Origin: an uncultured Hyphomicrobiaceae bacterium
GTDB taxonomy: Bacteria > Pseudomonadota > Alphaproteobacteria > Rhizobiales > CALHAX01
NCBI GenBank assembly: GCA_937931785.1
Contig: CALHAX010000098.1
Location: forward strand, 1 to 35,221
Direction: 5' to 3'
Length of the DNA stretch: 35,221 nt
Both the position numbers and the translations under genes were made by a program. The notes below the pieces were generated by a model. It saw nothing but the letters and a program-made list of their open reading frames with translations, did no database searches and had not been told where the DNA came from. Shown in pieces: positions 1 through 20,622 of this stretch (its first letter is position 1; every line of letters begins with the position of its first letter).

Positions 1-2073
1 AATCCAGAGTTTCTGTCCACCAGAAATTACGACCGTGCATTCTACATCCGCATCGCCCGTGCCACTGCCTACGACGCCGAGCTTTTTCATAAAGCTGTTC
101 GATGCATTGCTGCTTTTGCACGTGTTGAACCCCAGGGGTACAACCGTGATGCAGCACAAGATGCGATAGCCTCCCTATTTCAGATCCATTTGTCTGGAAC
201 TAGCGCTACTCCCCAAATGCGCGCTGACTTAGTTGGATCAATGCTTGCTGCACCAGAACTAGAACAACAGAAACTTGGGTTGTGCTGTCTCGAAGCTGCA
301 CTAGAGGCTTCTCACTTCTCAGCAACATACGATCCCGAGTTTGGTGCAAGAAAAAGGGGATATGGGTGGCGACCTAAACTTGTGCGAGATGTCTCCCTTT
401 GGTTTGGATTGTTTCTGAGCATTGCCCAGAACTTTGGAGAGGCACGTACGCCGATCGGAAACCGCATTAGAAGTATGGTTGGGCATAAATTTCCTGGGTT
501 GTGGAAGCATGGAGCTGTTCTCGACGAGATGGAGCGCATTGCGGCTACCTTTCACCATTCAGGTGGTTGGCCTGAAGGTTGGCGCGCCACAAAACTGACC
601 CTCAAGTACAACCGGACAAAAATGCCTACAGACGTACTCGCCCGCCTTGTAGCGCTTGAAGAAAAACTGCGTCCTGTCGACTTGGTTGGCTCAGTCCGAG
701 GGCATGTGTTTGGTGACGGACTAAGTGTCGTTGATGTAGACGATGATGAAGAGACCAGCGGGGTCGAAAGCTACGAGCGTGCCCAGGCGAAATCCAAGGA
801 ACTGGGTCGTTTGGTTGCTGTTGACGATGACGCGTTCGCTACACTTTTGCCCGAAGTGATGCGAGAGAATACGATGTTTGTCATGGCTTTCGGTGCAGGG
901 GTTGGTGAACTGCTCCCATTGTCGGATAGTATTGTTGAAAAACTACGTTCGCTGTTCGCAGAGATCCCAAACAAAGAACTCTCCGTTGCATTCGTCATGT
1001 CGTTCCTTGGGGCTGCGCATCGGCAAGATGAGAGCGCCGTCGAGACCTTTCTTGACATGGCTTTGGAAGATGGCATTTTTGCTCCATACTTCCCATTGTT
1101 GCAATGTGGCGTTGAATTGAACGACGCCGGCGTCGCTCGTTTACATCGAGCACTTGAACTTGGTCATGCGCCTGTGCACCGCTATCAAACTCTTGCAAGT
1201 GGTAGGGCGACAGACCCTTTAACGATACGCGAGGTTGCCTCGCTTGTAACTGCGATTTCAATACGTGACGGTGGACAGGTCGTCGCCATCGACATCCTCG
1301 CCATGGTTGTTCACTGCTCCGGCAACAAGGAAACTGAATACAAGGACGAGCTCAAAAATTTCTGTGGCACGTTTCTGTCCCAGCCATTCAGTTTGCCAAG
1401 CGATCATCTGAACGATCACTTAAACTACGAAATCAGACAACTCATTAAATATGCCGTTGTTGGACAGGGGCGAGAGACCGTTGCCGTAGATATATATCGC
1501 GCACTAGAGGAAAACAAAGACGACACACGGCTGTTCAGGCAAGACCGAAATTTGGAACCACTCTTAAAGCATCAGCCCATTGCAATGCTCGATGAAATAT
1601 TCGTACCGGATCAAAATGGCAGCTATGTTGATGCACAGAACAAGCTTTCGACAAACTGGTCTCGAGACGCAGCCGCAATAGACCATGCACCTGTAAGCGC
1701 GGTCATGGAGTGGTGTTCGGTGGAGCCCAACACTCGCGTGCCGTTCATCGCTTCGTGCCACAATCCGTTCTCAGATGCCGAAAAACCACCCTACGAATGG
1801 CAAGAACTCGCACTGGAGTTACTTCGGCAGGCCTCGGATAAAAGCGAGGTTCTCGAGTTGATTGTCGATCATGTTTTTCCCACGGGCTGGTCAGGTTCCC
1901 GCGCGGCGATCATTCGGCAGCGTGCTGAGCTGTTTGATCAACTGCCATCACTTGTAGACGGTGTAACGGAAGAACATGTTCGTCCTATCAAGCAGCGACT
2001 TGATGAGGTTGTGGAAAGTGACGAACAACATGAGGCGGAAAATGACCGTATTCGAGATGAGCGGTTCGAGTAA
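1..2073 (+). CDS. Large hypothetical protein, 5'-truncated by window edge
   Basis: The reading frame is open from base 1 to the TAA at 2071-2073, giving at least 690 residues, and no start is visible, so the real gene begins to the left. I do not recognise a named domain with certainty. The N-terminal visible part has helical, HEAT-like texture followed by the stretch DPEFGARKRGYGW near residues 112-124, then a largely helical body with many acidic residues and a highly charged C-terminal tail (DEQHEAENDRIRDERFE). No signal peptide or membrane segment is seen. Its length, helical C-terminal character and location on a tRNA-linked island fit the sensor end of a large STAND/NACHT-type or SIR2-linked NTPase, but this is inference only. 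The base composition seems more AT-rich than the core genes to the right. Confidence 0.75.
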   Translation, partial: NPEFLSTRNYDRAFYIRIARATAYDAELFHKAVRCIAAFARVEPQGYNRDAAQDAIASLFQIHLSGTSATPQMRADLVGSMLAAPELEQQKLGLCCLEAALEASHFSATYDPEFGARKRGYGWRPKLVRDVSLWFGLFLSIAQNFGEARTPIGNRIRSMVGHKFPGLWKHGAVLDEMERIAATFHHSGGWPEGWRATKLTLKYNRTKMPTDVLARLVALEEKLRPVDLVGSVRGHVFGDGLSVVDVDDDEETSGVESYERAQAKSKELGRLVAVDDDAFATLLPEVMRENTMFVMAFGAGVGELLPLSDSIVEKLRSLFAEIPNKELSVAFVMSFLGAAHRQDESAVETFLDMALEDGIFAPYFPLLQCGVELNDAGVARLHRALELGHAPVHRYQTLASGRATDPLTIREVASLVTAISIRDGGQVVAIDILAMVVHCSGNKETEYKDELKNFCGTFLSQPFSLPSDHLNDHLNYEIRQLIKYAVVGQGRETVAVDIYRALEENKDDTRLFRQDRNLEPLLKHQPIAMLDEIFVPDQNGSYVDAQNKLSTNWSRDAAAIDHAPVSAVMEWCSVEPNTRVPFIASCHNPFSDAEKPPYEWQELALELLRQASDKSEVLELIVDHVFPTGWSGSRAAIIRQRAELFDQLPSLVDGVTEEHVRPIKQRLDEVVESDEQHEAENDRIRDERFE

Positions 2074-2179
2074 CAAGCACTTATGTTCAAATAATCGCAT
2101 TCGAAAAATTAGCGGTGAATCTGTGCGGAATCTCGCCGCGACGGGATTGCTTTGTTCCCTACTCATAGGGTCGGTTGTG

Positions 2180-2479
2180 TCACTCTGCGGCTTCCGTAGA
2201 AGTGTAGGCTTGGTCAGGGCGATTGGGTGATTGGGGGTATTGGAGTTCTAGCTGACCGTCGGCGACCATCGGTGCGAGATGTCTTTCACGCAGCCCCGCA
2301 GGCTCGAGCTTGCACAGCTGCGCTATCTGGTCAGCTGTGAGGAATCTCCCAAGGCAGAGTGCCCGGATTGTCGATCGCATTACGTTTGCGGAAACGCCAC
2401 GTTTTGTGGAAACCGGCGCTATTATGTGTTGAGTCGGCATCGTTATGTAAGGAGCATCCAGATTAAGTAGCGCAAACAA
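2180..2479 (-). pseudogene. Remnant of AlbA_2/RecG-like ATP-binding regulator (C-terminal winged helix)
   Basis: The frame encodes about 99 residues whose last 65 match, from memory, the C-terminal winged helix of ATP-binding proteins with an AlbA_2 (Schlafen-like) domain. The helix RALCLGRFLTADQIAQL is followed by LRERHLAPMVADGQLELQYP and the typical ending PNRPDQAYTST. The N-terminal AlbA_2 and ATPase parts, normally several hundred residues, are absent; a TGA lies in frame shortly upstream and the only early start is a TTG at 2479. It therefore looks like a broken 3' fragment and not a working gene. Its position between the large partial gene and a tRNA-derived repeat fits decay inside a mobile island. 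A small functional winged-helix protein starting at the internal ATG near residue 14 is possible but less likely. Confidence 0.55.
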
Positions 2480-2679
2480 AGCGGATGTTTCACTCAGAAT
2501 TCAGCGCCTGTCGCTACCGACTCAATTACCTGTCATCCAGGAGAAAAATTCAGCGAGCGTTGCAGCATTCCTCCCTACACAGAACGTTTTCCAATCCTCC
2601 GGACATAACGGGAACATACGGGGATAATTGGAAAACATATATCGTTGTGTTTCAATAACTTAGTGCGTATATGTTCAAA

Positions 2680-2724
2680 TTCGTAATGACGGGGTCGGGT
2701 GTTCAAGTCACCCATGCGGCACCA
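2680..2724 (+). repeat. 3' half of tRNA-Thr(CGU): attachment-site scar of an island
   Basis: The sequence matches the 3' half of a tRNA. It has an anticodon loop TTCGTAA (anticodon CGT) at 2680-2686, a variable region, a T arm with stem GGGTG/CACCC around the loop TTCAAGT at 2697-2713, an acceptor strand ATGCGGC, discriminator A and an encoded CCA ending at 2724. Bases upstream of the loop do not pair with the 3' anticodon strand, and there is no D arm or 5' acceptor (GCCGCAT) in place, so this is not a complete tRNA. tRNA-Thr(CGU), like E. coli thrW, is a known site for tyrosine integrases. A 3'-end copy in this orientation marks the right border of an element whose intact tRNA lies to the left. 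The surrounding stretch 2480-2821 holds no gene that I can support. Confidence 0.8.
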
Positions 2725-2821
2725 TTTTTTATAATGAATTTCAACGCATCGCACCAATAAGCTCGCGGCGAAATAAAGTACGCTGTCTCTCGGCACCTGA
2801 GTTGTCGTCAATGGCACAAAC

Positions 2822-3169
2822 CTAAGTTCGTAACAGACCAACAACCAACTGTGCTGTCAGATCGACAGCGTGTTCGATACTTTTGGAAATCGCTGCCGCA
2901 TCACGGACATCCGGTGGGTAAAGCGCGCTTGCTTCGCCACTGTAGTGACGCCAGATCGCACGGGTGACACCGTTGCGACGGCACAGAATGTTGAAGTCCT
3001 CAGTCAGATCGAACGACCAGCCAATATCACCATAACCACCCGTATCGCCCAACTGCTGGTGCAGTGCGCGCATCTTTGCCTCTATGGCAATCAGCTCCGC
3101 TGGCTTTTCCGCAAGCTGGGCTTGCCGAATACGTGCCGCGCGGATCAGGGCTTGTTCAAAGTCTGACAT
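2822..3169 (-). CDS. Hypothetical protein, 115 aa
   Basis: The start is the ATG at 3169, preceded by a G-rich ribosome site (GGGGGA), rather than the upstream codon at 3196. The protein begins MSDFEQALIRAARIRQAQL and is soluble, with an amphipathic N-terminal helix rich in Ala, Arg and Glu and a second half containing WSFDLTEDFNILCRRNGV and WRHYSGEAS. There is no signal peptide, membrane segment or cofactor motif. I do not recognise the family. It is the first gene to the right of the tRNA-Thr scar, so it probably belongs to the core chromosome, and it is transcribed away from the aldehyde oxidoreductase operon. Confidence that it is a real gene rests on length, ribosome site and protein-like composition. 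Confidence 0.6.
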   Translation of the reverse strand: MSDFEQALIRAARIRQAQLAEKPAELIAIEAKMRALHQQLGDTGGYGDIGWSFDLTEDFNILCRRNGVTRAIWRHYSGEASALYPPDVRDAAAISKSIEHAVDLTAQLVVGLLRT

Positions 3170-3496
3170 ACATCCCCCACACCGTGTTGTCCTCACGTAC
3201 AGATTGGACAGACAACACGAACACGATATCTAAGATGATTCGCACAGCTGCGGTATAGCCGACCGGCCACGGCCCCCACATGTGTATCAAATGACGATGA
3301 AATTTTCCCAATGCTTGCCGTTACTATGGCTCCGCATGCGTGACCTCGCCAAAAACGTGGCTTGATTGCTGGACTGCAAAAGCCTTTAATCGGCATGCAA
3401 CGTGTGCGACCGGCATTGAATTCGGCGCATGGAACGACGCAGGAGGAAACGCAGCATACGTCACGACATATGCTGACCCATATAGAAAGGGCTGCA
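3170..3496. other. Divergent intergenic region upstream of the aldehyde oxidoreductase operon
   Basis: This 327-base gap separates the minus-strand hypothetical gene from the plus-strand operon. It contains one good sigma-70-like promoter (3362-3390, listed separately) and a strong Shine-Dalgarno-like AGGAGG at 3441-3446 that has no start codon at a useful distance; the nearest in-frame ATG, at 3470, is 23 bases away. I looked for a molybdenum/tungsten cofactor riboswitch and for a sigma-54 -24/-12 site and could not support either. Confidence 0.5.
3362..3390 (+). promoter_or_regulatory. Sigma-70-like promoter of the aldehyde oxidoreductase operon
   Basis: The -35 element TTGATT (3362-3367) and -10 element TTTAAT (3385-3390) are separated by exactly 17 bases and match the consensus at 4 and 5 of 6 positions. 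A transcript starting near 3397 would carry a 5' leader of about 100 bases before the ferredoxin start at 3497. This is the best promoter match seen in the gap, but it is a visual call. Confidence 0.5.
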
Positions 3497-3970
3497 ATGC
3501 AACGTGCTCTCGTGATTGATCCGGGCAAATGTACCGGGTGTAAACAGTGCGAACTTGCCTGTTCGTACGTCAAGGAAGGCGCCTTCAACCCCTCAAAGTC
3601 ACGCATTCGAGTGTTCGATTTCCACCAGAATGCACGCTTTGTGCCCTACACTTGTACCCAGTGCGACGAAGCCTGGTGCCAGCAGGCCTGCCCCACCAAC
3701 GCCATCACAACCGACGCGTTCGGCGTCAAGAACGTCAACGACAACCTGTGCGTTGGCTGCAAGGTGTGTACGATCGCCTGCCCGTTCGGCACGGTGAATT
3801 ACAATGTCGCGACCGGCAAGGTCATCAAATGCGACCTGTGTGGTGGTGACCCGGCCTGCGCCTCGGCCTGCCCGACCGACGCGATCGCTTATACGGACGT
3901 TGAACAGGCTGGCTTCGACAAGATGCAGGCCTGGGCACAGAAAACCGACGCTGGCGCACTACAGGCCTAG
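3497..3970 (+). CDS. aorA: Four-cluster ferredoxin subunit of aldehyde oxidoreductase (AorA-like)
   Basis: This 157-residue cytoplasmic electron carrier has sixteen cysteines arranged for four [4Fe-4S] clusters: C12/15/18/22, C53/56/61/65, C85/88/91/95 and C112/115/121/125. That is the pattern of the DmsB/HycB polyferredoxin group. The start is ATG 3497, preceded by AGAAAGG at 3484-3490; longer in-frame starts add residues that do not look like this family. It is followed 85 bases later by the tungsten-type catalytic subunit and then by a FAD oxidoreductase, the same order as the AorABC enzyme described from Aromatoleum aromaticum. It should pass electrons from the W-pterin subunit to the FAD subunit. 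The subunit letter is assigned by analogy. Confidence 0.92.
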   Translation: MQRALVIDPGKCTGCKQCELACSYVKEGAFNPSKSRIRVFDFHQNARFVPYTCTQCDEAWCQQACPTNAITTDAFGVKNVNDNLCVGCKVCTIACPFGTVNYNVATGKVIKCDLCGGDPACASACPTDAIAYTDVEQAGFDKMQAWAQKTDAGALQA

Positions 3971-4055
3971 GATGAGCAATCCGCAGGTGTGGCGCGATAG
4001 TTCTCGCGCACCAGGCAAGCCTGCAGAAAGAACCTTGAATGCAAGGAGAATAATT

Positions 4056-5903
4056 ATGGCATGGATGCGAAAACTCCTCCGTGTAAATCTCACCACCGGA
4101 AACATTGTCGAAGAGCCGCTCAACATGGAGTGGGCGCAGAAATATCTCGGTCAGCGCGGGCTGGCTTCGAAATATTTAACGGAAGAAATCGATCCGAAAG
4201 TTGATCCGCTCAGCCCGGACAACAAACTGATCTTCTGCACCGGCCCGTTGACGGGTACGAGTGCATCGACCGGTGGGCGATATTCCGTGATCACGAAAGG
4301 GGCTCTGACGGGGGCAATCGCCTGCTCCAATTCAGGCGGATACTTTGGCCCGGAACTGAAATTTGCCGGTTACGACATGATCATCTTCGAGGGTAAGGCG
4401 GAAAAGCCGGTCTACCTGACGGTGATCGACGACAAGGTGACTTTGCAGGACGCAGGCGACCTGTGGGGTAAGTCGGTCTGGGACACGGAAGCCGCCATCA
4501 AGTCCAAACATCAGGACTCGATGATGCACATCGCCTCTATTGGCATCGCCGGTGAGAACCAGGTGCTCTACTCCTGCATCGTCAATGATCTCCACCGTGC
4601 TGCCGGACGCTCGGGGGTCGGAGCCGTTATGGGTTCGAAAAATCTCAAGGCCGTTGCGGTTCGCGGAACGGGCGGTGTCAAGGTCGATGATTTCATGGAG
4701 TTCATGAAAACCACCGAAGCTGGCAAGAAGGTTCTGGCTGACAATGCCGTAACGGGTGAGGGCCTGCCGACTTACGGTACGCAGGTTCTCATGAATGTCA
4801 TCAACGAGGCAGGTGCCTTGCCGACTCGCAACTCGCGCGATGTCCAGTTTGAAGGTGCACACGACATCTCAGCCGAAGCCATGGCGGAACCATCCGGCAA
4901 AGATGGCAAGCCGAACCTGCTTGCAAACCAGGGTTGCTTTGCCTGCACAATCGCGTGTGGGCGGATTTCCAAGATCAACGAGGAACACTTCACCGTCGTC
5001 AACAAACCGGAATACTGGCATGCGTCAGGGGGTCTTGAATACGAGGCTGCGTGGGCGCTGGGGGCGGCGACAGGCATCAACGATCTCGACGCACTGACCT
5101 ATGCAAACTTTATCTGCAACGAACAGGGGCTCGATCCAATCTCGTTCGGCGCGACCCTCGGTGCAGCCATGGAGCTTTGGGATCTTGGCATCCTGAACAG
5201 CGAAATCACGGGCGGTCTTGAGTTGAAATTTGGTTCCGCTGAAGCGCTCACAGCCGCGGTTGAAGCGACAGGTAAGGCTGAAGGGTTTGGTGCGGAACTC
5301 GGGATGGGATCTGCCCGTCTGACGGCCAAGTACGGCAAACCCGAACTCTCACAAACGGTGAAAGGTCAGGAATTCCCGGCCTACGACCCGCGCGGCATTC
5401 AGGGCATGGGCCTGACCTATGCCACATCGAACCGCGGCGCCTGCCACCTGCGCTCTTACACCGTGTCGTCCGAAATTCTCGGTATCCCCGAAAAAACGGA
5501 CCCTCTGGTGACGGAAGGAAAAGCCGGTCTTGTGAAGGCCTTCCAGGATGCAACGGCTGCTGTGGATAGCGCCGGGCTATGCGTATTCACAACGTTTGCA
5601 TGGACTCTTGAGGATATTGCTCCGCAAGTGAATGCAGCCTGCGAGGGAGAGTGGACTGTCGACACCATGCTCGAAGCGGGGGAACGGATCTGGAATCTGG
5701 AACGTCAGTTCAACAATCAGGCAGGCTTCACGGCAGCCGACGACAAGCTGCCTGAGCGCCTCATGAAGGACGCCGCCAAGACTGGTCCTGCCGAAGGGCT
5801 GGTTTCCGGCCTCGATGTCATGTTGCCGGAATACTATGAACTTCGAGGTTGGACAGCCGACGGCGTCCCCACCAACGAAACAATGGCGCGGTTGAGACTT
5901 TAG
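4056..5903 (+). CDS. aorB: Tungsten-type aldehyde:ferredoxin oxidoreductase catalytic subunit (AorB-like)
   Basis: This 615-residue protein is the full length usual for the AOR family, which oxidises aldehydes to carboxylic acids at a W-bis-pyranopterin site. The start is ATG 4056, set by AAGGAGAA at 4043-4050. Visible family features are GGRYSVITKGALTGAIACSN and the following GGYFGPELKFAGYD in the N-terminal pterin-binding domain, AGRSGVGAVMGSKNLKAVAV, and the [4Fe-4S] ligands C294, C297 and C301 (CFACTIAC), with the fourth, C509, in DSAGLC. All four cluster ligands are present, so it should be active. The substrate cannot be read from sequence; broad aldehyde detoxification or amino-acid and aromatic-aldehyde breakdown are the known roles of mesophilic members. 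The protein is probably cytoplasmic; no signal peptide is seen. Confidence 0.95.
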   Translation: MAWMRKLLRVNLTTGNIVEEPLNMEWAQKYLGQRGLASKYLTEEIDPKVDPLSPDNKLIFCTGPLTGTSASTGGRYSVITKGALTGAIACSNSGGYFGPELKFAGYDMIIFEGKAEKPVYLTVIDDKVTLQDAGDLWGKSVWDTEAAIKSKHQDSMMHIASIGIAGENQVLYSCIVNDLHRAAGRSGVGAVMGSKNLKAVAVRGTGGVKVDDFMEFMKTTEAGKKVLADNAVTGEGLPTYGTQVLMNVINEAGALPTRNSRDVQFEGAHDISAEAMAEPSGKDGKPNLLANQGCFACTIACGRISKINEEHFTVVNKPEYWHASGGLEYEAAWALGAATGINDLDALTYANFICNEQGLDPISFGATLGAAMELWDLGILNSEITGGLELKFGSAEALTAAVEATGKAEGFGAELGMGSARLTAKYGKPELSQTVKGQEFPAYDPRGIQGMGLTYATSNRGACHLRSYTVSSEILGIPEKTDPLVTEGKAGLVKAFQDATAAVDSAGLCVFTTFAWTLEDIAPQVNAACEGEWTVDTMLEAGERIWNLERQFNNQAGFTAADDKLPERLMKDAAKTGPAEGLVSGLDVMLPEYYELRGWTADGVPTNETMARLRL

Positions 5904-5910
5904 ACAAGTG

Positions 5911-5945
5911 GCGGTGCGATGTTGGATTAACCGGAATCGCACCGC
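5911..5945 (+). other. Perfect 10-bp hairpin between aorB and aorC
   Basis: GCGGTGCGAT at 5911-5920 is perfectly complementary to ATCGCACCGC at 5936-5945, with a 15-base loop. It begins 7 bases after the aorB stop and is not followed by a T run, so it resembles an mRNA-stabilising or processing hairpin inside an operon more than an intrinsic terminator. Confidence 0.6.
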
Positions 5946-6056
5946 TCCAGTACCCGGCATGTTTGGCGAGCGCCTTTACTGTTCTGGCGTCATCCGCGCG
6001 GTTGGGGGAACCAGATGAAGTCCTGCAAGTGCGGGCTGAATGGAGTGAAACTGTCT

Positions 6057-7316
6057 ATGGTCGATCCACACCACGTCATCATTGGAGCCGGCCCTGCGGG
6101 GGTAACCGCGGCGGAAACGCTCCGTAAACACGACGCGAATGCGCGCATTACGATCATAGGGGAAGAGCCGGAAGCGCCGTATTCCCGCATGGCGATTCCG
6201 TATCTCCTGGAAGGTGATATCCAGGAGGCAGGCACGCATTTGCGTACCGATGCGGAACACTTCAATTCCCTCGATATCAATGTTTCGCGTGAACGTGTCG
6301 GGACAGTCATGGCCGGTCAGAAGCGCCTCAAGCTTGAGAATGGCAATGATGTAGAGTTCGATAAACTCCTCATTGCGACGGGATCAAGTCCGATCAAGCC
6401 GCCGATCGATGGAATGGATCTTCCCGGTGTCCATAATTGCTGGACGCTTGCCGATGCCCGTAAGATCAATGATCTTGCCGTGTCAGGCTCCAACGTCGTT
6501 CTGCTTGGCGCCGGGTTCATTGGTTCCATCATCCTTGAAGCGCTTGCGTCCAAAGGAGTGAACCTCACGGTCGTTGAGATGGGCGATCGCATGGTGCCAC
6601 GTATGCTCGATGAAACCGCAGGAAACATGCTCAAATCCTGGTGCGAGGAACGCGGGATTCGAATTCTCACCTCAACGAAAGTGACTGAGGTTGTTGAGGC
6701 AACAGGTGGTCTTCATGTCGTCACGGACGGCGGCGAACGGCTCCCCGCAAAACTCTTTGTGGTCGCAGCGGGTGTGAAACCAAATTACGGCTTCCTGGCG
6801 TCAAGCGGTATAGAAGTCGGGTCAGGTGTCCACGTCGACAATCATATGCAAACCAATGTTCCCGGCATCTACGCGGCCGGAGACGTGGCCGAAGCCAGAG
6901 ACCTGTCGACCGGTGGCTATGACGTGCTCGCCATCCAGCCGGTTGCGGTTGAGCACGGCTACACCGCGGCCATGAATATGGCCGGCCACCCAACCGAACA
7001 CCGTGGAAGCCTGAACATGAATGTGCTCGATACCGTCGGGTTGATCTCTTCATCATTCGGATCATGGATGGGTGTGGACGGCGGAACCCGAGGCACGCTG
7101 GCCGACCAGTCCGGTTATCGCTACATCCGCCTTGAGTTCGACGATGATCGCCTCGTCGGTGGTCAGGCCGTCGGACTGACGGAGAATATCGGCATTATGC
7201 GCGGTCTCATCCAGACAGGCTTGCCGCTCGGGTCCTGGAAAGACAAGCTCATCGCAGCGCCTGAACGTCTTGCCGAAGCCTACATCGCAACGGCCCACGG
7301 CATCTCTCACGCATGA
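6057..7316 (+). CDS. aorC: FAD/NAD(P)-dependent oxidoreductase subunit (AorC-like)
   Basis: The protein has about 419 residues and the two-dinucleotide-fold layout of the pyridine nucleotide-disulfide oxidoreductase group. An N-terminal FAD motif (VIIGAGPAGVTAAE) is followed by a second NAD(H) motif near residue 150 (VVLLGAGFIGSIILEAL) and the late FAD motif GIYAAGDVAEA. It lacks the redox CxxxxC of disulfide reductases, as in ferredoxin and nitrite reductase-type members. I chose ATG 6057 (GGAG at 6042-6045) because the fold begins at once; ATG 6015, preceded by GGGGG, would add 14 residues and is a real alternative. Within the operon it is the likely electron exit that reduces NAD+ with electrons from aldehyde oxidation. 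Confidence 0.9.
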   Translation: MVDPHHVIIGAGPAGVTAAETLRKHDANARITIIGEEPEAPYSRMAIPYLLEGDIQEAGTHLRTDAEHFNSLDINVSRERVGTVMAGQKRLKLENGNDVEFDKLLIATGSSPIKPPIDGMDLPGVHNCWTLADARKINDLAVSGSNVVLLGAGFIGSIILEALASKGVNLTVVEMGDRMVPRMLDETAGNMLKSWCEERGIRILTSTKVTEVVEATGGLHVVTDGGERLPAKLFVVAAGVKPNYGFLASSGIEVGSGVHVDNHMQTNVPGIYAAGDVAEARDLSTGGYDVLAIQPVAVEHGYTAAMNMAGHPTEHRGSLNMNVLDTVGLISSSFGSWMGVDGGTRGTLADQSGYRYIRLEFDDDRLVGGQAVGLTENIGIMRGLIQTGLPLGSWKDKLIAAPERLAEAYIATAHGISHA

Positions 7317-7356
7317 TTGAAACAGAGAGGGTGGAAAATCGGATACATCACGCCCC

Positions 7357-7608
7357 ATGAAAGTAAAACTCAAACTTTACGCAACGCTTGGCAAATACCT
7401 TCCGCCAACCGCGAAGCGGAACGAGATCGACCTCACGGTAGACGAGACCACGTCCGTGCTCGATCTGCTCACCAGCCATAACGTTCCAATGGAAACCTGC
7501 CACCTGATCCTGGTGAACGGTGTATTTTCTCCACCAGCCAACGCAGCCAACGCGACCCTCAAGAATGGTGACATTGTTGCCGTGTGGCCTCCCGTGGCAG
7601 GCGGCTAA
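7357..7608 (+). CDS. MoaD/ThiS-like sulfur carrier protein
   Basis: This 83-residue protein has a ubiquitin-like beta-grasp and ends in the diglycine needed for activation (PPVAGG). It begins MKVKLKLYATLGKYLPP, typical of MoaD-like proteins linked to tungsten enzymes. The known role of the family is to carry a C-terminal thiocarboxylate that supplies the dithiolene sulfurs of molybdopterin; here it is probably dedicated to the tungsten cofactor of the neighbouring oxidoreductase. It follows the FAD subunit by 40 bases, and its TAA overlaps the ATG of the next gene by one base, so the two are translationally coupled. The family call is firm; the dedication to tungsten is inferred from context. 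Confidence 0.88.
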   Translation: MKVKLKLYATLGKYLPPTAKRNEIDLTVDETTSVLDLLTSHNVPMETCHLILVNGVFSPPANAANATLKNGDIVAVWPPVAGG

Positions 7609-7916
7609 TGCGCACGATATCTAGCGAAACCAGCACGGTCACAAAATTGATGGCCGCAAACCCTTCCGAATTTACGCGCGGCATGGAGCGCGTGACGCGA
7701 GACATGACGGCGCGTAAGGACGGGGAGGTAACAATAATCAATCTTCCGGGTGGAACGGTGTCCATCACGTATAGCCCGAAGGAAGGTCGCCGCCTCAGTC
7801 CCCTGATTGTGATGCCGGCCGCCGATGTGATATTCACGTTCACCAACGTCGAGGAAGCGGATCGCGCGGCCTTCATTGCCAAATTCGACCTCGTCTTCCA
7901 GCGTGGCGGCGGTTAA
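7608..7916 (+). CDS. Small AOR-operon protein of unknown function, Gly-Gly-Gly C-terminus
   Basis: This protein of about 102 residues starts at ATG 7608 inside the stop of the MoaD-like gene (TAATG), which fixes the start better than the upstream codon at 7584. It is soluble and contains a central beta-rich part (VTIINLPGGTVSITYSP, then RRLSPLIVMPAADVIFTF) and a helix, EADRAAFIAKFDLVF, ending RGGG. I do not recognise a named domain. Its coupling to the sulfur carrier and its place at the end of the operon suggest a role in tungsten cofactor handling or enzyme maturation. The triple-glycine end resembles the tails of ubiquitin-like proteins, but no such fold is evident from sequence alone. Confidence 0.8.
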   Translation: MRTISSETSTVTKLMAANPSEFTRGMERVTRDMTARKDGEVTIINLPGGTVSITYSPKEGRRLSPLIVMPAADVIFTFTNVEEADRAAFIAKFDLVFQRGGG

Positions 7917-7928
7917 CCCAAATCAACC

Positions 7929-7948
7929 ATGCGACCTGATGGTCGCAT
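7929..7948 (+). terminator. Hairpin after the AOR operon
   Basis: ATGCGACC and GGTCGCAT form a perfect 8-bp stem with a TGAT loop, starting 13 bases after the last operon gene. There is no clear T run after it, so it may end transcription weakly, protect the 3' end, or be an operator for the genes downstream. Confidence 0.4.
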
Positions 7949-8038
7949 CTGGCACTTCATAAAATTTGAAATCGTATTAAGGTTCGAATCACTGGCTGCT
8001 CCGTTGAGTTGACAGGCAAAGCATACAAGAAGCGTGAA

Positions 8039-8062
8039 GCGGCTCTCCCGTTACAGAGCCGC
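8039..8062 (+). promoter_or_regulatory. Inverted repeat ahead of the desaturase gene
   Basis: GCGGCTCT at 8039-8046 pairs perfectly with AGAGCCGC at 8055-8062 around an 8-base spacer, and it ends 25 bases before the chosen GTG start of the desaturase. It could be a protein-binding operator or a leader hairpin. A nearby TTGACA at 8009-8014 has no -10 element at the right distance, so the promoter is not located. Confidence 0.4.
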
Positions 8063-8087
8063 GACAGGAAAGCAACAGAGGAACGCA

Positions 8088-9062
8088 GTGACGAAAAGAG
8101 CGGGCTCGGGGGAGCCTGAAAACCACCATATGCATCATGGCAGATCGCAACCCCACACCAGTTGGACCATAGAATGGCCAACGTGGGGATTGATTGCGGT
8201 GTGTTATGGGGGGTGGCTCACTCTAACGTACGCATACCATTCTATCCCGCTCTGGATATTTGCACCCTGCACCGCCTATATCGTTGCGCTTCATTCTTCT
8301 CTCCAGCACGAAATTCTCCACGGTCATCCAACACGCAATGCCACAATCAACGAGGTGATGGTTTATTTCCCCCTTGGCCTGTTCGTCCCGTACCGTCGTT
8401 TCCGCAACACCCACCTTCGTCATCACTGCGATGAACGCCTGACAGATCCCTACGACGATCCGGAAAGCTGGTATGTTTGCCCAGAAAAATGGGGGCAGTC
8501 GTCCGGTGTAATACGATTGTTGCTTCGCATAAACGCGACACTGGGTGGTCGCCTGATCATTGGTCCAGGCCTCGCGATGTTTGGGCTCCTCCGTCAGGAT
8601 GCGCGTGATATCCTCTCCGGTAAGGCGCCACTCACGGCTCGTGCCTGGCTCCATCATGTGATCGGCCTTGTGGTTGTGAGTCTATGGCTGGTCGGAATTT
8701 GCGGAATGAACCTCTGGACGTACATATTCTGCACTGCGTACCCCGGCATGAGTCTCCTTCTCATTCGCAGCTACGCGGAACATCGTGCGAGCGAAGATCC
8801 AAACCACCGCACAGCAATCATCGAAGCTTCACCGTTCTTCAGTCTTCTTTTCCTGAACAACAATCTGCATTACGTACATCACCAAAGACCACGTGTGCCT
8901 TGGTATGACCTTCCACGTCTGTACCGTGCTAGCGCCGAGGAGTTCCATGTTCGTAACGCAGGCTACGGATTTTGTGGTTACGGTGATTTGTTCCGTCGCC
9001 ACTTTTTTCGTGCGCACGATGATATCGTGCATCCTCTAAGCCCGAAAGAAAGGAAGCAATGA
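8088..9062 (+). CDS. Membrane fatty acid desaturase family protein
   Basis: This integral membrane di-iron protein carries the three histidine boxes of the family: HEILH near residues 75-79, HLRHH near 108-112 and HYVHH near 260. Hydrophobic segments lie before the first box and between the second and third. The GTG at 8088 is the best start because AGAGGA at 8077-8082 precedes it by 5 bases; the ATG at 8034 has no such site. Members desaturate acyl chains, while close relatives act on other lipids or amino-alcohol substrates, so the substrate is open. It overlaps the next gene by four bases (ATGA), so the pair is coupled. No partner ferredoxin or reductase is adjacent. Confidence 0.88.
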   Translation: MTKRAGSGEPENHHMHHGRSQPHTSWTIEWPTWGLIAVCYGGWLTLTYAYHSIPLWIFAPCTAYIVALHSSLQHEILHGHPTRNATINEVMVYFPLGLFVPYRRFRNTHLRHHCDERLTDPYDDPESWYVCPEKWGQSSGVIRLLLRINATLGGRLIIGPGLAMFGLLRQDARDILSGKAPLTARAWLHHVIGLVVVSLWLVGICGMNLWTYIFCTAYPGMSLLLIRSYAEHRASEDPNHRTAIIEASPFFSLLFLNNNLHYVHHQRPRVPWYDLPRLYRASAEEFHVRNAGYGFCGYGDLFRRHFFRAHDDIVHPLSPKERKQ

Positions 9063-9859
9063 TTGCGTCTCTCCCGATGTATCGCAACACTGCGACCCAG
9101 GGAGCCTGTGATCGCTTCTGGACCGTCTGGGCAGAAAAACTTCGCAAACGTGGCATAGACGCCCCTATGCACCTGACAATCGAGGACGATGCTGAATCCA
9201 CGTGGTCTGATCCGGCGTTATTGATCTCCCAGACGTGTGGATACCCTTATGCCTCCAGCCTCCGGGACAAAGTACGCCTTGTCGCCACGCCACACTACGC
9301 GGTCGAGGGATGCAATGGCCCAGCCTATTGCAGCTGGATTGTTGTCCATGTCGACAGCATAGCAACTATTCTTCAGGATCTTGAGGGGCTTCGCGTTGCG
9401 TTCAATGGTTCTGGATCGCAGTCGGGCTACAACAATTTTCGCGCCGCCATCGCACCACTGACCCACGGTAAAAAGTTTTTTTCCGAAACTCATCAAACGG
9501 GAAGCCATGCAGAATCGATGCGTTACGTAGCCGATGGAAAAGCCGACTGCGCCGCCATCGATGCCGTCAGCTGGGTGCTGACGCTCGAAGAAGAGCCTTT
9601 ACTTGAAAAAAAACTACGGCGCATGGCTATAACGCCAGAAGTTCCCGGATTGCCGTTCATCACATCAGCAGATCGCAGCGATGAAGACGTGACTGCCATG
9701 CGCAATGCTCTCTTGGATACGTTGTGCGATGCCACTCTGAGCGAAGACCTGGCGATACTGAAACTGTGCGGAGCAACCGTTCTTGATGACAGTGCATATG
9801 ACGTCTGCCTGACGATGGAGCGCGCCGCGGTCGAAGCCGGTTATCCCAGATTGGCCTGA
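9059..9859 (+). CDS. PhnD-like phosphate/phosphonate-type substrate-binding protein without signal peptide
   Basis: This 266-residue protein belongs to the PhnD/SsuA-type periplasmic binding fold. It starts ASLPMYRNTATQGACDRFW, has the ligand-site region SQTCGYPYASSL, the central LRVAFNGSGSQSGYNNFR and the second-lobe ADGKADCAAIDAVSW. These follow the family layout, but no signal peptide or lipobox precedes the first strand, and no permease or ATPase genes are next to it. It therefore probably works in the cytoplasm, perhaps as a ligand sensor or a partner of the desaturase with which it overlaps by four bases. An unseen upstream signal sequence is excluded by the overlap, because the preceding codons encode the desaturase in another frame. 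Confidence 0.82.
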   Translation: MIASLPMYRNTATQGACDRFWTVWAEKLRKRGIDAPMHLTIEDDAESTWSDPALLISQTCGYPYASSLRDKVRLVATPHYAVEGCNGPAYCSWIVVHVDSIATILQDLEGLRVAFNGSGSQSGYNNFRAAIAPLTHGKKFFSETHQTGSHAESMRYVADGKADCAAIDAVSWVLTLEEEPLLEKKLRRMAITPEVPGLPFITSADRSDEDVTAMRNALLDTLCDATLSEDLAILKLCGATVLDDSAYDVCLTMERAAVEAGYPRLA

Positions 9860-9995
9860 CCGGACGTCGCCAATGTGTAAAAATCCTTAGTGCCAGTCAT
9901 GCCGGGGGATTGCGTCGCCCGAATCGCTTGTCTATTGCGAAGGATCAAGAATTGAAGCGGAGCAATCGCTCGCGAAAACGAAGTGAGGACACCCC

Positions 9996-12422
9996 ATGGC
10001 AGAACTTCAGAGCCACGCCAAATGCGTGATCATCGGTGGTGGCGTCATGGGTGTCGGGCTCCTTTATCATCTGGCTGAGGAAGGTTGGACCGATACGGTG
10101 CTTGTCGAGAAAGGCGAGCTGACGTCCGGTTCTACGTGGCATGCCGCAGGGCAGTGTCCGCACTTCACGGGCTCATATAATCTTGCCAAGATCCATTACG
10201 AAGGCACGATCCTGTATCCCAAACTCGAAGAGCTGACCGGACAGGCCGTCTCGTGGCACGGCTGCGGTGGCGTGCGGCTGGCGCAGACCGATGCTGAGGT
10301 GGAGTGGTTCCATCACGTGGCGGGCATGGCGCCTTTGATCGGCTATGAGTGCGAAGTCGTTGGCCCGGAAGACATCAAGCAGTATCACCCATACCTTGAA
10401 ACGTTCGACGTGAAGGCCGGTTTCGTGACGTTCACAGATGGTCACGTTGCCCCCGCCGACGTGACAATGGCCATGGCCGCTGGAGCGCGAAAGCACGGCG
10501 TTACGATTTCCAAACGCAACCGCGTCACAGATGTCAATTTGCTTCCGTCCGGCGAATGGCAGGTTGTGACCGAGCAAGGTACGATCACATGTGAGCATGT
10601 CGTGAATGCCTGTGGTTCCTACGCGGACATCGTTGGCTCCTGGACCGGACATAATGTGCCGATAGCTAATATGCTGCATCATTACATTATCACCGAGCCG
10701 CTCCAGGAACTCGTTGATATGGAGAAAGAACTTCCTGTTATTCGCGACCCTTACTCGCACTGTTACATCCGCGAGGAAGCGAACGGCATCCTGATCGGTC
10801 CATATGAAACCGCTGGCGCAACGACCTGTTTCAACGATGGCATATCCTGGGATTTCGAGAACGAACTCGTCCCGGACGAGATGGATCGTCTGATGCCATG
10901 GCTCGAGAAAGCGACCGAGCGTTTCCCAATGTTCGAGAAGGCGGGCCTGAAGTCAGTTATCTCCGGCGCGATCACCCACACACCGGACGCGAATTTCCTC
11001 CTCGGCCCCGCACCGGGCGCAGCCAACTACTGGATGGCGAATGGCGCGTCCATCGGGATCTGCCAGGGCGCAGGGGCAGGCAAGTATCTCGCCCAGTGGA
11101 TGGTCCACGGTGCCGCCGACATCAACATGGCCGAGTTCGACCCGCGCCGCTTCGGTCCGTGGGCCACATTGGAATACGCCAAGGTCACGTCGATCAACGA
11201 CTACCAGAACATGTACACCTGCCTGCCGCCCGGTGATCAGCACGAAGCAGGTCGTCCCGTCCGCACATCAAGCCTCTACGACAAGCACAAGGCCGCCGGT
11301 GGTCTCTTTCAGCAAGTCATGGGCTGGGAACGCGTCCGCTGGTACGACACGGCGGGTGAGGGAGAAAAATACTCCTGGAAGCGATCGAACTGGTGGGGCG
11401 CTGTGAAAGAGGAGGCGCTCGCTGTCCGCAATGCGGTCGGCCTGATGGACCTTTCGACGTTTGCCAAGTTCGACGTTCGTGGCAGGGATGCTGCCACCGT
11501 CCTCAATCGTATCACAGCCAACAAGATGCCCCGCAAGGATGGCGGCATCGTCCTCACCCACTTCCTGAACGAGGGTGGACGGATCATGGGTGAAGCCACG
11601 ATTACGCGAATGGCTGAGGATCACTTCTATGTTCTGGTGGGAGCAACGGCACAACACACCGACTTTGATTGTATCACGAATGCCGTACAGGACGGGGAAG
11701 ACCTTATCATCGAGGATCATACGGAAAAGGTCGGCACACTGGTGCTCGCCGGCCCGAAGGCGCGCGATGTGCTCTCCGCTGTAACATCCGATGACGTGAG
11801 CCACGAGAATTTCCGCTGGCTGACCGGAAAGGTTATCTCCATTGAGGGGACAGAGATCGTCGCACTGCGTGTGAACTACGTCGGCGAACTCGGTTGGGAG
11901 CTGCATGGACCAATGGACAAGCTGCCTGCGATCTTCGATGCGCTGATGGCAGCGGGTGAGCCGCACGGCATTCGCCTGTTCGGCTCCTATGCCATGAACG
12001 CCCTGCGGATGGAAAAAGCCTATCGCGGTTACGGCAGCGACATTACCACCGAGATCACCATGGTCGAAGGCGATATGGAACGCTTTGTCGACTGGGACGG
12101 CGCGGAGTTCGTTGGCAAGCAGGCCACACTCAATTCCAGGCAGCAAGGTGCGCGCATCAAGCTGGTATACCTTGAGGTCGATGCGAAAGACGCGGATTGT
12201 GTTGGTGGTGAAACGGTCTACGCAGGCGATAAACCTGTTGGCGTTACGACCACCGGTGGTTACGGTTTCGCCGTCGAAAAGTCTCTCGCCTTCGCTTACG
12301 TTGAACCGGAGCTTGCGTCCGACGGAGGTGTTTTCACCATCGACATCCTTGGCGAACGCCGTGCCGCAAAAATCATCCCGCAACCTGCGTATGATCCAAA
12401 GAACGAACGACTGCGGAGCTAA
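9996..12422 (+). CDS. FAD-dependent dimethylglycine/sarcosine dehydrogenase with GcvT domain
   Basis: This 808-residue two-part enzyme has an N-terminal DAO-type flavin domain, with CVIIGGGVMGVGLLYHL at 10-26 and the STWHAAG motif whose H49 is the residue that binds FAD covalently in this family. It has a C-terminal tetrahydrofolate-binding GcvT-like domain from about residue 430 to the end. Such enzymes demethylate methylated glycines, feeding one-carbon units to folate. A GTGAGGAC ribosome site precedes ATG 9996. The length matches intact family members and no break is seen. Whether the substrate is dimethylglycine, sarcosine or another N-methyl compound cannot be read from sequence. The gene stands alone, 136 bases after the PhnD-like gene. 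Confidence 0.93.
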   Translation: MAELQSHAKCVIIGGGVMGVGLLYHLAEEGWTDTVLVEKGELTSGSTWHAAGQCPHFTGSYNLAKIHYEGTILYPKLEELTGQAVSWHGCGGVRLAQTDAEVEWFHHVAGMAPLIGYECEVVGPEDIKQYHPYLETFDVKAGFVTFTDGHVAPADVTMAMAAGARKHGVTISKRNRVTDVNLLPSGEWQVVTEQGTITCEHVVNACGSYADIVGSWTGHNVPIANMLHHYIITEPLQELVDMEKELPVIRDPYSHCYIREEANGILIGPYETAGATTCFNDGISWDFENELVPDEMDRLMPWLEKATERFPMFEKAGLKSVISGAITHTPDANFLLGPAPGAANYWMANGASIGICQGAGAGKYLAQWMVHGAADINMAEFDPRRFGPWATLEYAKVTSINDYQNMYTCLPPGDQHEAGRPVRTSSLYDKHKAAGGLFQQVMGWERVRWYDTAGEGEKYSWKRSNWWGAVKEEALAVRNAVGLMDLSTFAKFDVRGRDAATVLNRITANKMPRKDGGIVLTHFLNEGGRIMGEATITRMAEDHFYVLVGATAQHTDFDCITNAVQDGEDLIIEDHTEKVGTLVLAGPKARDVLSAVTSDDVSHENFRWLTGKVISIEGTEIVALRVNYVGELGWELHGPMDKLPAIFDALMAAGEPHGIRLFGSYAMNALRMEKAYRGYGSDITTEITMVEGDMERFVDWDGAEFVGKQATLNSRQQGARIKLVYLEVDAKDADCVGGETVYAGDKPVGVTTTGGYGFAVEKSLAFAYVEPELASDGGVFTIDILGERRAAKIIPQPAYDPKNERLRS

Positions 12423-17750: not shown

Positions 17751-18209
17751 ATGGAAAAATTTCTTGGCAAGCTCACCAGATGGATGGGGGCCAACGATAC
17801 AAAGCTGCCAACGGCGCAAGACGACGTTCAGTTCGCTGCAGCCGCTCTGATGGTGCATGCCATGCGGGTCGACGATGTCGAGGATCCCGATGAAGTGAAA
17901 CGCGTGCGGGACGTGCTTGCAGATCGGTTTGATCTCGATCGTGATGACCTGAACACCGTGATCGCAAAGGGGACGCAAGCCGATGATGAAGCTGTCGATC
18001 TCTATCGCTTTACGAAGATCTTGACCGCAAATTTGGATCAAACCGGTCGGCAGGACATTGTTCGAATGCTTTGGCAGGTGATGTTTGCTGACGGCAACAT
18101 TCACGAATTCGAAAGCAATCTTGTCTGGCGGGTGGCCGAACTGATTGGTGTATCGCGCGCGGATCGCATCCGGTTACGACAGGAGGTCACCGCAAACCCG
18201 AAGGCATAA
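17751..18209 (+). CDS. TerB-like (tellurite-resistance fold) protein
   Basis: This 152-residue acidic helical protein starts at ATG 17751 ([13 protein letters not shown], with GGGGAC just upstream). It shows the TerB-fold pattern: [19 protein letters not shown] as a first metal-type acidic loop and the paired later motif [24 protein letters not shown]. The family binds metal through such acidic loops and is linked to stress and envelope functions; the stand-alone alphaproteobacterial members have no proven job. There is no ter operon here, so tellurite resistance should not be assumed. The upstream open frame to 17676 is an extension over the divergent promoter region and was not included. 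Confidence 0.85.
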
Positions 18210-18227
18210 CGTCGGCAACAAACTTGC

Positions 18228-18734
18228 TTAGAGTTCGCTGCTGTAAGCCTGCCAACCTTCGGGTGCACTCCATTGGCCACCAAAGTTCCAGCTTCCATCG
18301 CCAACGGTGAAGATCGGTGCAACAACTTCTCGACCCGTCAACGCTTCAAGGCGTTCAACGAAATTCGAGCCATCCCGACCCGCTCCAACTGCACATCCGA
18401 CCAGAACGATTTTCGCGTCCTCGGACAGGTAGTGTTTCCATTCCGCAACAAGCTCGCCGTAGGGACCGAGTGTATCACCAGCGAAACCGTAGAGCCCAAG
18501 TGCCAGTTCCCCGGGACGTCCATATCCGACCAGCACAAGTTCACTGACCCGCTTGAGTTTGCGAAGGATCATCGTCACATCCAGGATGAAGTCTTCGTCC
18601 CGCGAGATCCGCAGCGATGCATCCTGTGGCCGCAAGGAGTCTTGCAGCAACTTCAAATCCAGCAGCCCGTCATCGAAAACATACAGTGATCGGTGCGCCA
18701 GAATATCAAAGGTGAACTCAACAGTAGTACTCAT
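18228..18734 (-). CDS. Stand-alone DUF4347-domain protein
   Basis: This 168-residue protein starts at ATG 18734 (MSTTVEFTFDILAHRSLYVF). It follows the DUF4347 pattern: an early strand ending in the equivalent of D-x-x-L/D, a region SELVLVGYGRPGELALG like the usual 'HIVSHGxPGxLxLG' segment, then AKIVLVGCAVGAGRDGSNFV and LEALTGREVVAP, and a final GGQWS. In the usual proteins this domain is the N-terminal part of very large secreted adhesins; here it is a free, signal-less protein. The usual His of the SHG segment is replaced by Tyr-Gly (VGYGRPG). It is convergent with the TerB-like gene, with 18 bases between them. Confidence 0.75.
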   Translation of the reverse strand: MSTTVEFTFDILAHRSLYVFDDGLLDLKLLQDSLRPQDASLRISRDEDFILDVTMILRKLKRVSELVLVGYGRPGELALGLYGFAGDTLGPYGELVAEWKHYLSEDAKIVLVGCAVGAGRDGSNFVERLEALTGREVVAPIFTVGDGSWNFGGQWSAPEGWQAYSSEL

Positions 18735-18934
18735 TGACGCAATAACTCTCTGCACATGTACACCCAAAACACGTGTATCCCCGGACTACACGCGCTAGAA
18801 ATCAGGCAAACGATTCGTTCACGTTCATTATGGGAACGGTTCCGGACCATTGAATCGAACGGACCTATCGATATCGTTAATATGCGGATGAAAAGCGTAA
18901 CAATCCGCCGTCGCGACGCCGGGAGAGCTGGAAC

Positions 18935-19831
18935 ATGTCGAAGGAATGGCGAAACAGATGGCGCCACAGGCATTGGCAACCTGGTCCCGAACAGAACCGC
19001 TATAACGGTCTTGAGCCGATCGTCTGCATAACGGGCGGATCAGATGGCATCGGTCTGGCTCTGGCGCACGAATTCGTGGCAGAAGGGCGCGCTCTTCTGC
19101 TTGTTGCGCGCGATCCTTCGCGTTTGGAGTTGGCCGCCCGCGAAATCACGCGCAGGAAGCCAGGGGCGCTCATTCTGACTCACTATATCGATTTGTTGAA
19201 TCCGGAGAACCGCAGGGTCCTGGAAGCACATGCGGCGAGTCTTGGCTATTACATCGACGTACTGGTGAACTCTGCCGGCTCAGGTTTATCCGGACCGTTC
19301 ATCAGCCACAGTACACATAATATCCGCGATCTTATAGAATTGAACATCACGGGCGTGACGGATCTCTGTCGTCGCCTGCTACCGGGCATGGTCGCGCGTG
19401 GTCGGGGGGGGATCCTGAACGTGTCCTCCATGGCCGGCCTCGTACCAGGGCCGCATCAGGCGGCCTATTACGCAAGCAAGGCCTACATGAATTCGCTTGG
19501 AGCCGCATTGGCCAACGAAGTGTCCGGCAAGGGCGTGCGCATCACCACACTCGCCCCGGGCGCCGTGGATACACAGTTTCACGAGCGGATGGAAGCTGAG
19601 GGGAGTCGTTACTTGCGGTTTCTTGGGGTTCAGTCACCGGACGTCGTGGCAAAGGCTGGCTACGCAGGGTTTCAGCGCTGGCAACGTTTTGTCGTTCCCG
19701 GCCTGGTGCACAAGATCAACGCGTTTGCGTTACATCTGCTGCCAAACTGCATTACAGTACCGATGATGGCGTTTCTCTTGCAGCGGCCAACCATACAACC
19801 ACATCTCGACAAGGACAAAACGGCACGATGA
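18935..19831 (+). CDS. Short-chain dehydrogenase/reductase
   Basis: This 298-residue classical-type SDR has an N-terminal extension of about 27 residues rich in Trp, Arg and His, then the cofactor motif TGGSDGIGLALAHEF, the NSAGSG loop, the catalytic Ser in NVSSMAGL and the YYASK active-site pair. The Arg in the loop after the second strand (VARDP) suggests NADP(H). It is closest in style to the DltE/YqjQ-like acyl or steroid-type SDRs, but the substrate is open. GGAGAG lies upstream of ATG 18935. Its TGA overlaps the next ATG in ATGATG, so it is coupled to the amidotransferase gene that follows. Confidence 0.88.
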   Translation: MSKEWRNRWRHRHWQPGPEQNRYNGLEPIVCITGGSDGIGLALAHEFVAEGRALLLVARDPSRLELAAREITRRKPGALILTHYIDLLNPENRRVLEAHAASLGYYIDVLVNSAGSGLSGPFISHSTHNIRDLIELNITGVTDLCRRLLPGMVARGRGGILNVSSMAGLVPGPHQAAYYASKAYMNSLGAALANEVSGKGVRITTLAPGAVDTQFHERMEAEGSRYLRFLGVQSPDVVAKAGYAGFQRWQRFVVPGLVHKINAFALHLLPNCITVPMMAFLLQRPTIQPHLDKDKTAR

Positions 19832-20622
19832 TGGATCGGGACAACGAGCTGCTGAGAGACCGGGGACGTAGCATCCTGGGCGGTAACGTATCCCTCAATG
19901 TGCCAGAAAAAGTGCTGCCCGAACGCAAACCGGTGCTTTTGATCCTGCATCAGGAAAAATCAAATCCTGGACGCATTGCGCAGTGGCTGGTCGCAAACGG
20001 TTTTCCGCTCGATATCCGCAAACCGCGTTTTGGTTGCCCATTGCCCGAGACGTTGGAACATCATGCCGGTGCTGTCATTTTCGGTGGTCCCATGAGTGCT
20101 AACGATACAGATGATTTTATCAAGCAGGAGACAGACTGGATCCGTGTTCCTCTGCGCGAGAACAAGCCATTTCTGGGCGTCTGCTTGGGTGCGCAGATGT
20201 TGGCGCGGCACCTTGGTGGAGAAGTGACACCATGTCCTGATGAGTCGATCGAAGTGGGGTACTATCCACTCTCCTTGACGGATGCCGGTCGCAATCTCTG
20301 TGAATGGCCTGAGCACGTTTACCAGTGGCATACGGAAGGTTTCTCAATCCCGGATGGTGCTACGCGGCTGGCTGGCACGGAGCGCTTTCCGAACCAGGCG
20401 ATGACGTATGGTCCGGCTGCAGCAGGCGTGCAGTTCCATCCTGAAATCACATACGCTCTCGTTAACCGCTGGACATCGCACCGGCCTGATCGATTGGCAA
20501 CAAAAGGCGCGCGGCCGCGCCATGAGCACTTCGAGAGCCATTTTCGCCATGCCGGCAAAGTAGCGAACTGGATCGATAGTTTCATGCGCCAGTTGCTTCG
20601 TACTGAGCTGCCTGTGAAATGA
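19828..20622 (+). CDS. Class I glutamine amidotransferase-like protein
   Basis: This 264-residue protein has the complete GATase1 triad: the nucleophile C119 in FLGVCLGAQML, and H204 and E206 in VQFHPEIT. It also shows the oxyanion-type GGPMSAND segment. It lacks any synthetase domain, so it belongs to the free amidotransferase-like group (GuaA-N-like, COG0518), whose members may hydrolyse gamma-glutamyl compounds or serve a separate synthase. About 35 residues precede the fold, and the start may be either ATG in the ATGATG at 19828. It shares a four-base overlap with the SDR upstream, which makes a two-gene operon likely. The actual substrate is unknown. Confidence 0.9.
   Translation: MMDRDNELLRDRGRSILGGNVSLNVPEKVLPERKPVLLILHQEKSNPGRIAQWLVANGFPLDIRKPRFGCPLPETLEHHAGAVIFGGPMSANDTDDFIKQETDWIRVPLRENKPFLGVCLGAQMLARHLGGEVTPCPDESIEVGYYPLSLTDAGRNLCEWPEHVYQWHTEGFSIPDGATRLAGTERFPNQAMTYGPAAAGVQFHPEITYALVNRWTSHRPDRLATKGARPRHEHFESHFRHAGKVANWIDSFMRQLLRTELPVK

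Follow-up and report, generated by a model that had tools for sequence, protein, structure and literature searches.

A genomic island that very probably split a host tRNA-Thr(CGT) gene at its anticodon loop in an uncultured Hyphomicrobiaceae bacterium

In an uncultured Hyphomicrobiaceae bacterium, a genomic island has very probably inserted itself, by way of a 9-bp core, into the tRNA-Thr(CGT) gene that the host carries behind hemY. The insertion point is the anticodon loop, and the gene was split by this event into a 5' half on contig C112 and a 3' half in the stretch of DNA analyzed here. That stretch (the window) comprises 35,221 nucleotides and is the whole of contig C98 in an assembly of 134 contigs (3.66 Mb, 99.27% complete). 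Judging from the sequence, the target tRNA is not rebuilt at this site, and its two halves lie on separate contigs.

Results

The 3' half of tRNA-Thr(CGT) in the window

The tRNA fragment in the window is 46 nt long and comprises one stem base, the anticodon loop TTCGTAA, the 3' strand of the anticodon stem, the variable loop, the T arm, the 3' acceptor strand, and an encoded CCA (Table 1). The original prediction of an isolated tRNA-Thr(CGU) 3' half at 2680-2724, running to the encoded CCA, holds with one base to be added at its left end, and no complete tRNA was found in the window by ARAGORN or by Rfam at the gathering threshold. In the alignment, the window matches the intact 76-nt tRNA-Thr(CGT) genes of six relatives back to 2679, and the bases before that position disagree. 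A 44-nt pattern from the fragment, allowing up to 3 mismatches, matched 7 of 61 genomes including its own, and the other six matches were intact 76-nt tRNA-Thr(CGT) genes. Allowing up to 3 mismatches, the 22-nt T-arm/acceptor end has a single occurrence in the window and none in 100 shuffles, which rules out a chance match. A nested island that reaches to the TerB gene and is marked by a further tRNA 3' end was also rejected, as the window has one copy.

Table 1. Features of the window and of the right junction
Feature	Position	Strand	Basis
Probable integrated island, right end	1..2678	.	Interior absent from assembly
PD-Lambda-4_A-like putative defence protein, C-terminal part (690 aa), cut by contig start	1..2073	+	PADLOC PDLC03991, E=2.3e-88, profile positions 585-1283
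Small ORF, weak Fic-like_C match below curated cut-off	2180..2479	-	E=0.00073, 19.8 bits vs cut-off 27
Host tRNA-Thr(CGT) gene 3' half, anticodon loop to CCA (right junction)	2679..2724	+	Alignment with intact genes; partner 5' half on C112
Attachment core ATTCGTAAT, 9 bp common to both junctions (anticodon loop plus one base either side)	2679..2687	+	Junction comparison
TerB, SDR, and GATase genes, host block	17751..20622	+	Same order after tRNA-Thr(CGT) in G339

The Rfam tRNA search of the assembly gave 32 genes, 30 of which were given as loci typed by ARAGORN. Thr(GGT) and an intact Thr(TGT) are among these 30, and Thr(CGT), Asn, and Cys are absent from them. Because the Asn and Cys tRNAs are also missing among those typed, the absence of an intact Thr(CGT) gene is weak evidence, and such a gene may have been lost from the assembly. 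In the same genome, contig C48 (L013) ends a single base beyond the CCA of tRNA-Arg(CCG); this end may mark a further integration site at which the assembly broke.

The 5' half on C112

The 5' half of tRNA-Thr(CGT) is located on C112 at 10474-10512, where it is the exact and sole match in the genome, with hemY (HemY_N, E=1e-13) upstream. Beyond ATTCGTAAT, this half continues into non-tRNA DNA, and a restored intact tRNA gene was not found at the left junction. The flanking bases on both sides of ATTCGTAAT differ between the two junctions. When the halves of C112 and the window are combined, the acceptor and anticodon stems pair at 12 of 12 positions, and swapping halves among five split loci gave only 5-11 of the 12 pairs. 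Joining the flanks in silico yielded one normal tRNA-Thr(cgt) as judged by ARAGORN. No contig was found that continues C98 or C112, and the first 240 bases of the window overlap no other contig.

The fragment in the window had been interpreted as a duplicated tRNA 3' end, for which a second copy was expected in the genome. It is instead the gene's own 3' half, present in a single copy (with up to 3 mismatches allowed, its last 32 nt recur nowhere else in the 3.66-Mb assembly) and accompanied by the separate 5' half on C112. The missing second copy does not refute the island, because its cause is an unrepaired split and not the absence of an island. The placement of an island end at 2724, with the island to the left, is borne out by the 5' half and the integrase-type ORF at the other junction. 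Both an intact tRNA and an integrase had been expected to the left of base 1; an integrase-type ORF does lie beside tRNA sequence on C112, but the tRNA there is not intact.

The two ends of the island

At the C112 end, an ORF that starts 279 nt past the 5' half matches Arm-DNA-bind_3 (E=9.7e-13) and ends at the contig end after 147 aa; we read it as the putative N-terminal part of an integrase. The catalytic part was not found in the assembly, whose two Phage_integrase matches fall in ORFs (381 and 348 aa) internal to other contigs. At the window end, the 690 aa of the truncated ORF correspond to the C-terminal 699 positions of protein A in the PADLOC models of PD-Lambda-4, and, unlike in a complete PD-Lambda-4 system, protein A, here with a putative defence role, is cut at the contig end. 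This protein has no Pfam match and no match among phage records; it matches 28 plasmid records, with 25-31% identity in the best 15 of the 28. Its N-terminal part was likewise not found in the assembly, and since this holds for the catalytic part of the integrase as well, the interior of the island is missing from the assembly. No tRNA was found in the two assembled island ends, either on the window side (ARAGORN and Rfam) or on the C112 side.

The integrase fragment had no match among phages, with only the two island ends available for comparison, and a search of genome_contigs and viral_contigs gave no useful relatives. Within the order, it matches 8 of 397 genomes, its own included. No tRNA was found by ARAGORN within about 1.5 kb on either side of the seven other loci, five of which have isolated tRNA 3' ends close by, and one (G355) of three examined over a longer stretch is a canonical tRNA-Ala(CGC) island. 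These seven loci gave no support to the idea that tRNA genes are also split by relatives of this integrase in the order.

The genes around the two halves

The TerB-SDR-GATase block lies 15 kb to the right of the 3' half in the window. In G339, tRNA-Thr(CGT) is followed by these genes in unchanged order, and the right flank of the window is therefore native. TerB stands directly after the tRNA in G024 and about 9.5 kb from it in G339. On the other side, hemY precedes the intact tRNA-Thr(CGT) in four of six relatives (L034-L037). The flanks around both halves thus seem, from their gene content, to be native, with the island in between. The 15 kb between the tRNA 3' end and TerB (2725-17750) contains an aldehyde ferredoxin oxidoreductase gene set and is a variable stretch, perhaps made up of older insertions.

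Broken tRNA-Thr genes elsewhere in the order

Matches to a 5'-half pattern were compared, across 397 genomes of the order (the present one among them), with those to the same pattern extended into the 3' half. The resulting counts are lower bounds, with about 150 matches listed per pattern and further matches existing. Splits with a longer core, such as that in G207, are missed, and TTAGCGGGTC, the junction most often seen in the split family, is matched by the longer pattern too, with G092 as an example. At least 10 genomes differed between the two patterns, as read from the per-genome counts, and inspection left broken genes in at least six: a tRNA-Thr(CGT) gene in the present genome, G157, G359, and G339, and a tRNA-Thr(TGT) gene in G249 and G071. 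Among the rejected candidates, the difference is explained by a contig end in G001, G113, and G156, and in G325 by an intact gene whose loop is variant.

The complete arrangement exists on one contig of G157, where the 5' half is followed 190 nt on by an intact, divergent tRNA-Thr(CGT), then by a tyrosine integrase gene, and then, at a distance of 21.7 kb from where the 5' half begins, by the 3' half, with a core of 7 bp (TTCGTAA) common to both halves. In G359, whose halves are on two contigs, an intact divergent tRNA-Thr(CGT) lies on the opposite strand, 96 nt inside the element from the 3' half. In G339 (L076:2614-17214), hemY, the 5' half, and an integrase are followed 14.5 kb on by an intact tRNA-Thr(CGT) whose 5' half is identical; an isolated 3' half was not found on the contig. 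This is perhaps a mirror-image element restoring the 5' half, and G339 was for that reason not counted as a case of tRNA replacement.

Three further observations were made in this survey. The tRNA-Thr(TGT) genes of G249 (L079:664-701) and G071 (L081:2033-2070) are broken at the same place, and each of these genomes has an intact TGT gene on another contig. G207 (L211:8287-8494) has a tRNA-Thr(CGT) broken further along, with a longer remnant, an adjoining intact gene, and TAGTAGGG repeats. A broken tRNA-Thr(CGT) with the TTAGCGGGTC junction is found at G092:C2:271971-272012, seen as a 42-nt match alone.

Split tRNA-Thr(CGT) genes across bacteria

A scan of genome_contigs with the 5'-half pattern, in which position 40 was required not to be G, found at least 117 stretches, and 80 loci among the matches listed were analyzed; the pattern picks splits by design and these counts are lower bounds, so the scan says nothing on how frequent splits are. 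One of the loci, L146, is apparently C49 of G359, as its contig has the same length and the same junction sequence. None of the 80 loci listed has an ARAGORN tRNA over the 5' half. At 60 of the 80, the broken gene is followed on its own strand by an intact tRNA-Thr(CGT), the two starts lying 103-211 nt apart (133-137 nt in 35 of these 60), and at 2 of the 80 the intact gene lies further on or on the opposite strand. At the remaining 18 of the 80 loci listed no intact Thr(CGT) was seen, with less than 400 nt available downstream in 6 and at least 700 nt in 12. In the control, a second Thr(CGT) was found at none of 14 intact-gene loci within the stretch examined, two of these stretches ending just past the gene. 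Over its first 38 nt, the intact gene is identical to the broken half in 15 of the 60 cases and different in 45, the few largest differences being register shifts of the comparison. The spacer between them starts with TAGCGGG in 35 of 60, and TAGTAGG occurs at least twice in 29 of 60 spacers, as against none in 200 rounds of base shuffling; we infer that these sequences are arm sites of integrases.

Both halves were found around an intact gene at two of the 80 loci listed: L126 of Comamonas badia (5.3 kb, a 3' half ending in TCA, stems paired at 11 of 12 positions) and L132 of a MAG from the Rhodospirillales (2.0 kb, stems paired at 12 of 12). A 3' half was not seen at the other 78, where most of the stretches end within 8 kb. 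None was found beside the integrases of six scan loci, and the far end of most scan loci is for this reason unseen. Among the 80 stretches listed, hemY was detected by tblastn in 34 (E up to 1e-10). One Arm-DNA-bind_3 integrase family is represented in six of the stretches by complete or partial copies, and the large proteins neighboring it have a VapE-like domain in both of the two tested. The integrase fragment of the present island had no match in the ORFs of the 80 loci listed and is therefore not close to that family. In viral_contigs, the junction sequence seen most often had no exact match, and a search of phages and plasmids with the junction module returned no record covering 80% of the query, the matches listed (30, 30, and 20) corresponding to about the tRNA part alone. 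In two Neomarinimicrobiota MAGs, the gene adjoining the broken 5' half encodes a serine recombinase (Resolvase PF00239), at L103:4803-5777 (+) with E=6e-29 and at L159:1-713 (-) with E=4e-27.

Discussion

The integrase of the island would have its crossover site in the anticodon stem-loop, which is an inverted repeat around the 7-nt loop, and the island would recombine through ATTCGTAAT into the tRNA-Thr(CGT) gene behind hemY. Because the 9-bp core is too short to rebuild the tRNA, the gene would be left as a 5' half and a 3' half with the island between them; in the cases resolved, attP appears to share just 7-9 bp with the gene, so that integration would cut the tRNA in two. The island is supposed to have the integrase gene at its left end and the PD-Lambda-4-like defence gene at its right end. 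C112 and the window probably represent the two ends of one element, and the element's own integrase probably made the insertion.

The cell would keep tRNA-Thr(CGU) if the element brings one, as most of the elements seen appear to do. A spare intact tRNA-Thr(CGT) in the element was seen in G157, G359, L126, and L132, and such a gene inside related elements could, to go by its sequence, make good the loss. For the present island, the chances seem about evenly divided between a spare tRNA-Thr(CGT) in the unassembled interior and a cell that lives on tRNA-Thr(UGU). The latter, which is a sub-case of the split, means that tRNA-Thr(CGU) was lost and that ACG codons are read by tRNA-Thr(UGU), and we place it just short of an even chance. 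It agrees with the intact Thr(TGT) in the assembly, with the lack of a spare in the assembled island ends, and with the 12 of 80 scan loci listed that have at least 700 nt downstream and no Thr(CGT) there; phage Daredevil is also described as splitting its target without a spare, though it plates clear (PMC10865867). The presence of a spare beside the broken half in 60 of the 80 loci listed argues against it, and in G359 the spare sits at the other end of the element, while the interior of this island is unseen.

It is improbable that C112 and C98 are unrelated, whether through misassembly or through different events or strains. A draft of 134 contigs in which no read or contig joins the halves, and in which the beginning of the window overlaps no other contig, would allow it, but the perfect stem pairing, the one common core, and the apparently native genes outside each half argue against it, as does the same layout on single contigs elsewhere (G157, L126, and L132). 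Still less probable is an ordinary tDNA island, whose 3' half would have rebuilt the gene at the left junction, leaving the fragment in the window as the displaced copy. Such an event is the usual outcome in tRNA genes (PMC4383910) and fits the orientation and the far-end integrase gene, but the 5' half on C112 enters non-tRNA DNA, unless C112 is misassembled, and the assembly has a single 3' half (up to 3 mismatches). Destruction of the gene by a transposon or decay, in place of site-specific recombination, has only the lack of a 5' half in the window in its favor and is the least credible, given a 3' half complete to CCA and a break at the anticodon loop with a short common core and an adjoining integrase-type ORF.

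The split of the gene by an island resembles the tRNA-dependent lysogeny of actinobacterial phages (mycobacteriophages), for which an integration scheme with cores of 8-17 bp is given in Table 2 of PMC10865867, whose authors also mention Lj965 of Lactobacillus. In both, integration occurs in a host tRNA gene via a short core (9 bp here) without rebuilding the gene, and the cognate tRNA arrives with the element, here in related elements. The elements described there are temperate phages of Actinobacteria, whereas ours is the end of an island with a putative defence gene in an alphaproteobacterial order, and the target is tRNA-Thr(CGU); the tRNA is reported to be proven necessary in actinobacteriophages (PMC10865867), whereas here we hypothesize that the spare, known from related elements, is needed by the host and so locks the island in. 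Two Sinorhizobium meliloti prophages were reported to inactivate tRNA-Leu(UAG) and to bring a substitute (PMC11476347). These prophages, of the type of Mesorhizobium phage vB_MloP_Lo5R7ANS, are similar in that a tRNA gene is broken mid-way in an alphaproteobacterium and the substitute is in the element, but they are prophages at tRNA-Leu(UAG) in two strains (PMC11476347), as opposed to the many genera with tRNA-Thr(CGU) here. phiLM21-like prophages are described as restoring their targets (PMC12429752). Canonical tDNA islands, as treated in the Islander paper, share the integrase, the tRNA target, the anticodon-loop crossover, and the terminal tRNA fragment with the present island, but their target tRNA is restored (PMC4383910). 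Our literature search, which was thin on subscription journals, found no report of islands that split and replace a tRNA, or of tRNA-Thr(CGU). The novelty seems to be that tRNA-dependent integration, known from actinobacterial phages and a Sinorhizobium prophage case, is found here in what appear to be genomic islands, mostly of Proteobacteria.

A broader reading, which we put forward tentatively while leaning slightly against it, is that mobile elements have converged on the anticodon loop of tRNA-Thr(CGU) as a docking site. There, genomic islands as well as phages would break the host gene and put their own tRNA in its place, as an addiction-like lock against loss of the island. Several unrelated tyrosine integrases, and apparently serine recombinases in Neomarinimicrobiota, would have reached the site in Alpha-, Beta-, and Gammaproteobacteria as well as in other groups. 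According to the Islander paper of 2014, only tyrosine integrases were then known to target tRNA genes (PMC4383910). Island finders of the Islander type rest on a target tRNA restored by the island (PMC4383910). An island that leaves the gene broken and supplies a spare ends differently, and such finders could overlook it or misplace its boundaries. At one locus, often hemY-tRNA-Thr, a host tRNA gene would be exchangeable for a foreign one, and a phenomenon of actinobacterial phages would extend to islands with defence genes. If the spare is indeed needed while the gene stays unrepaired, loss of the island would be costly, and tRNA replacement would therefore act as a maintenance strategy. The spare tRNA may thus make islands that cut tRNA-Thr(CGT) at this spot hard to lose.

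Elsewhere in the window, on the minus strand of 28229-29115, three ORFs of 96-100 aa stand in tandem and begin alike (KGYW...). They appear to be one small gene in triplicate, and their products are putative DUF1330 proteins.
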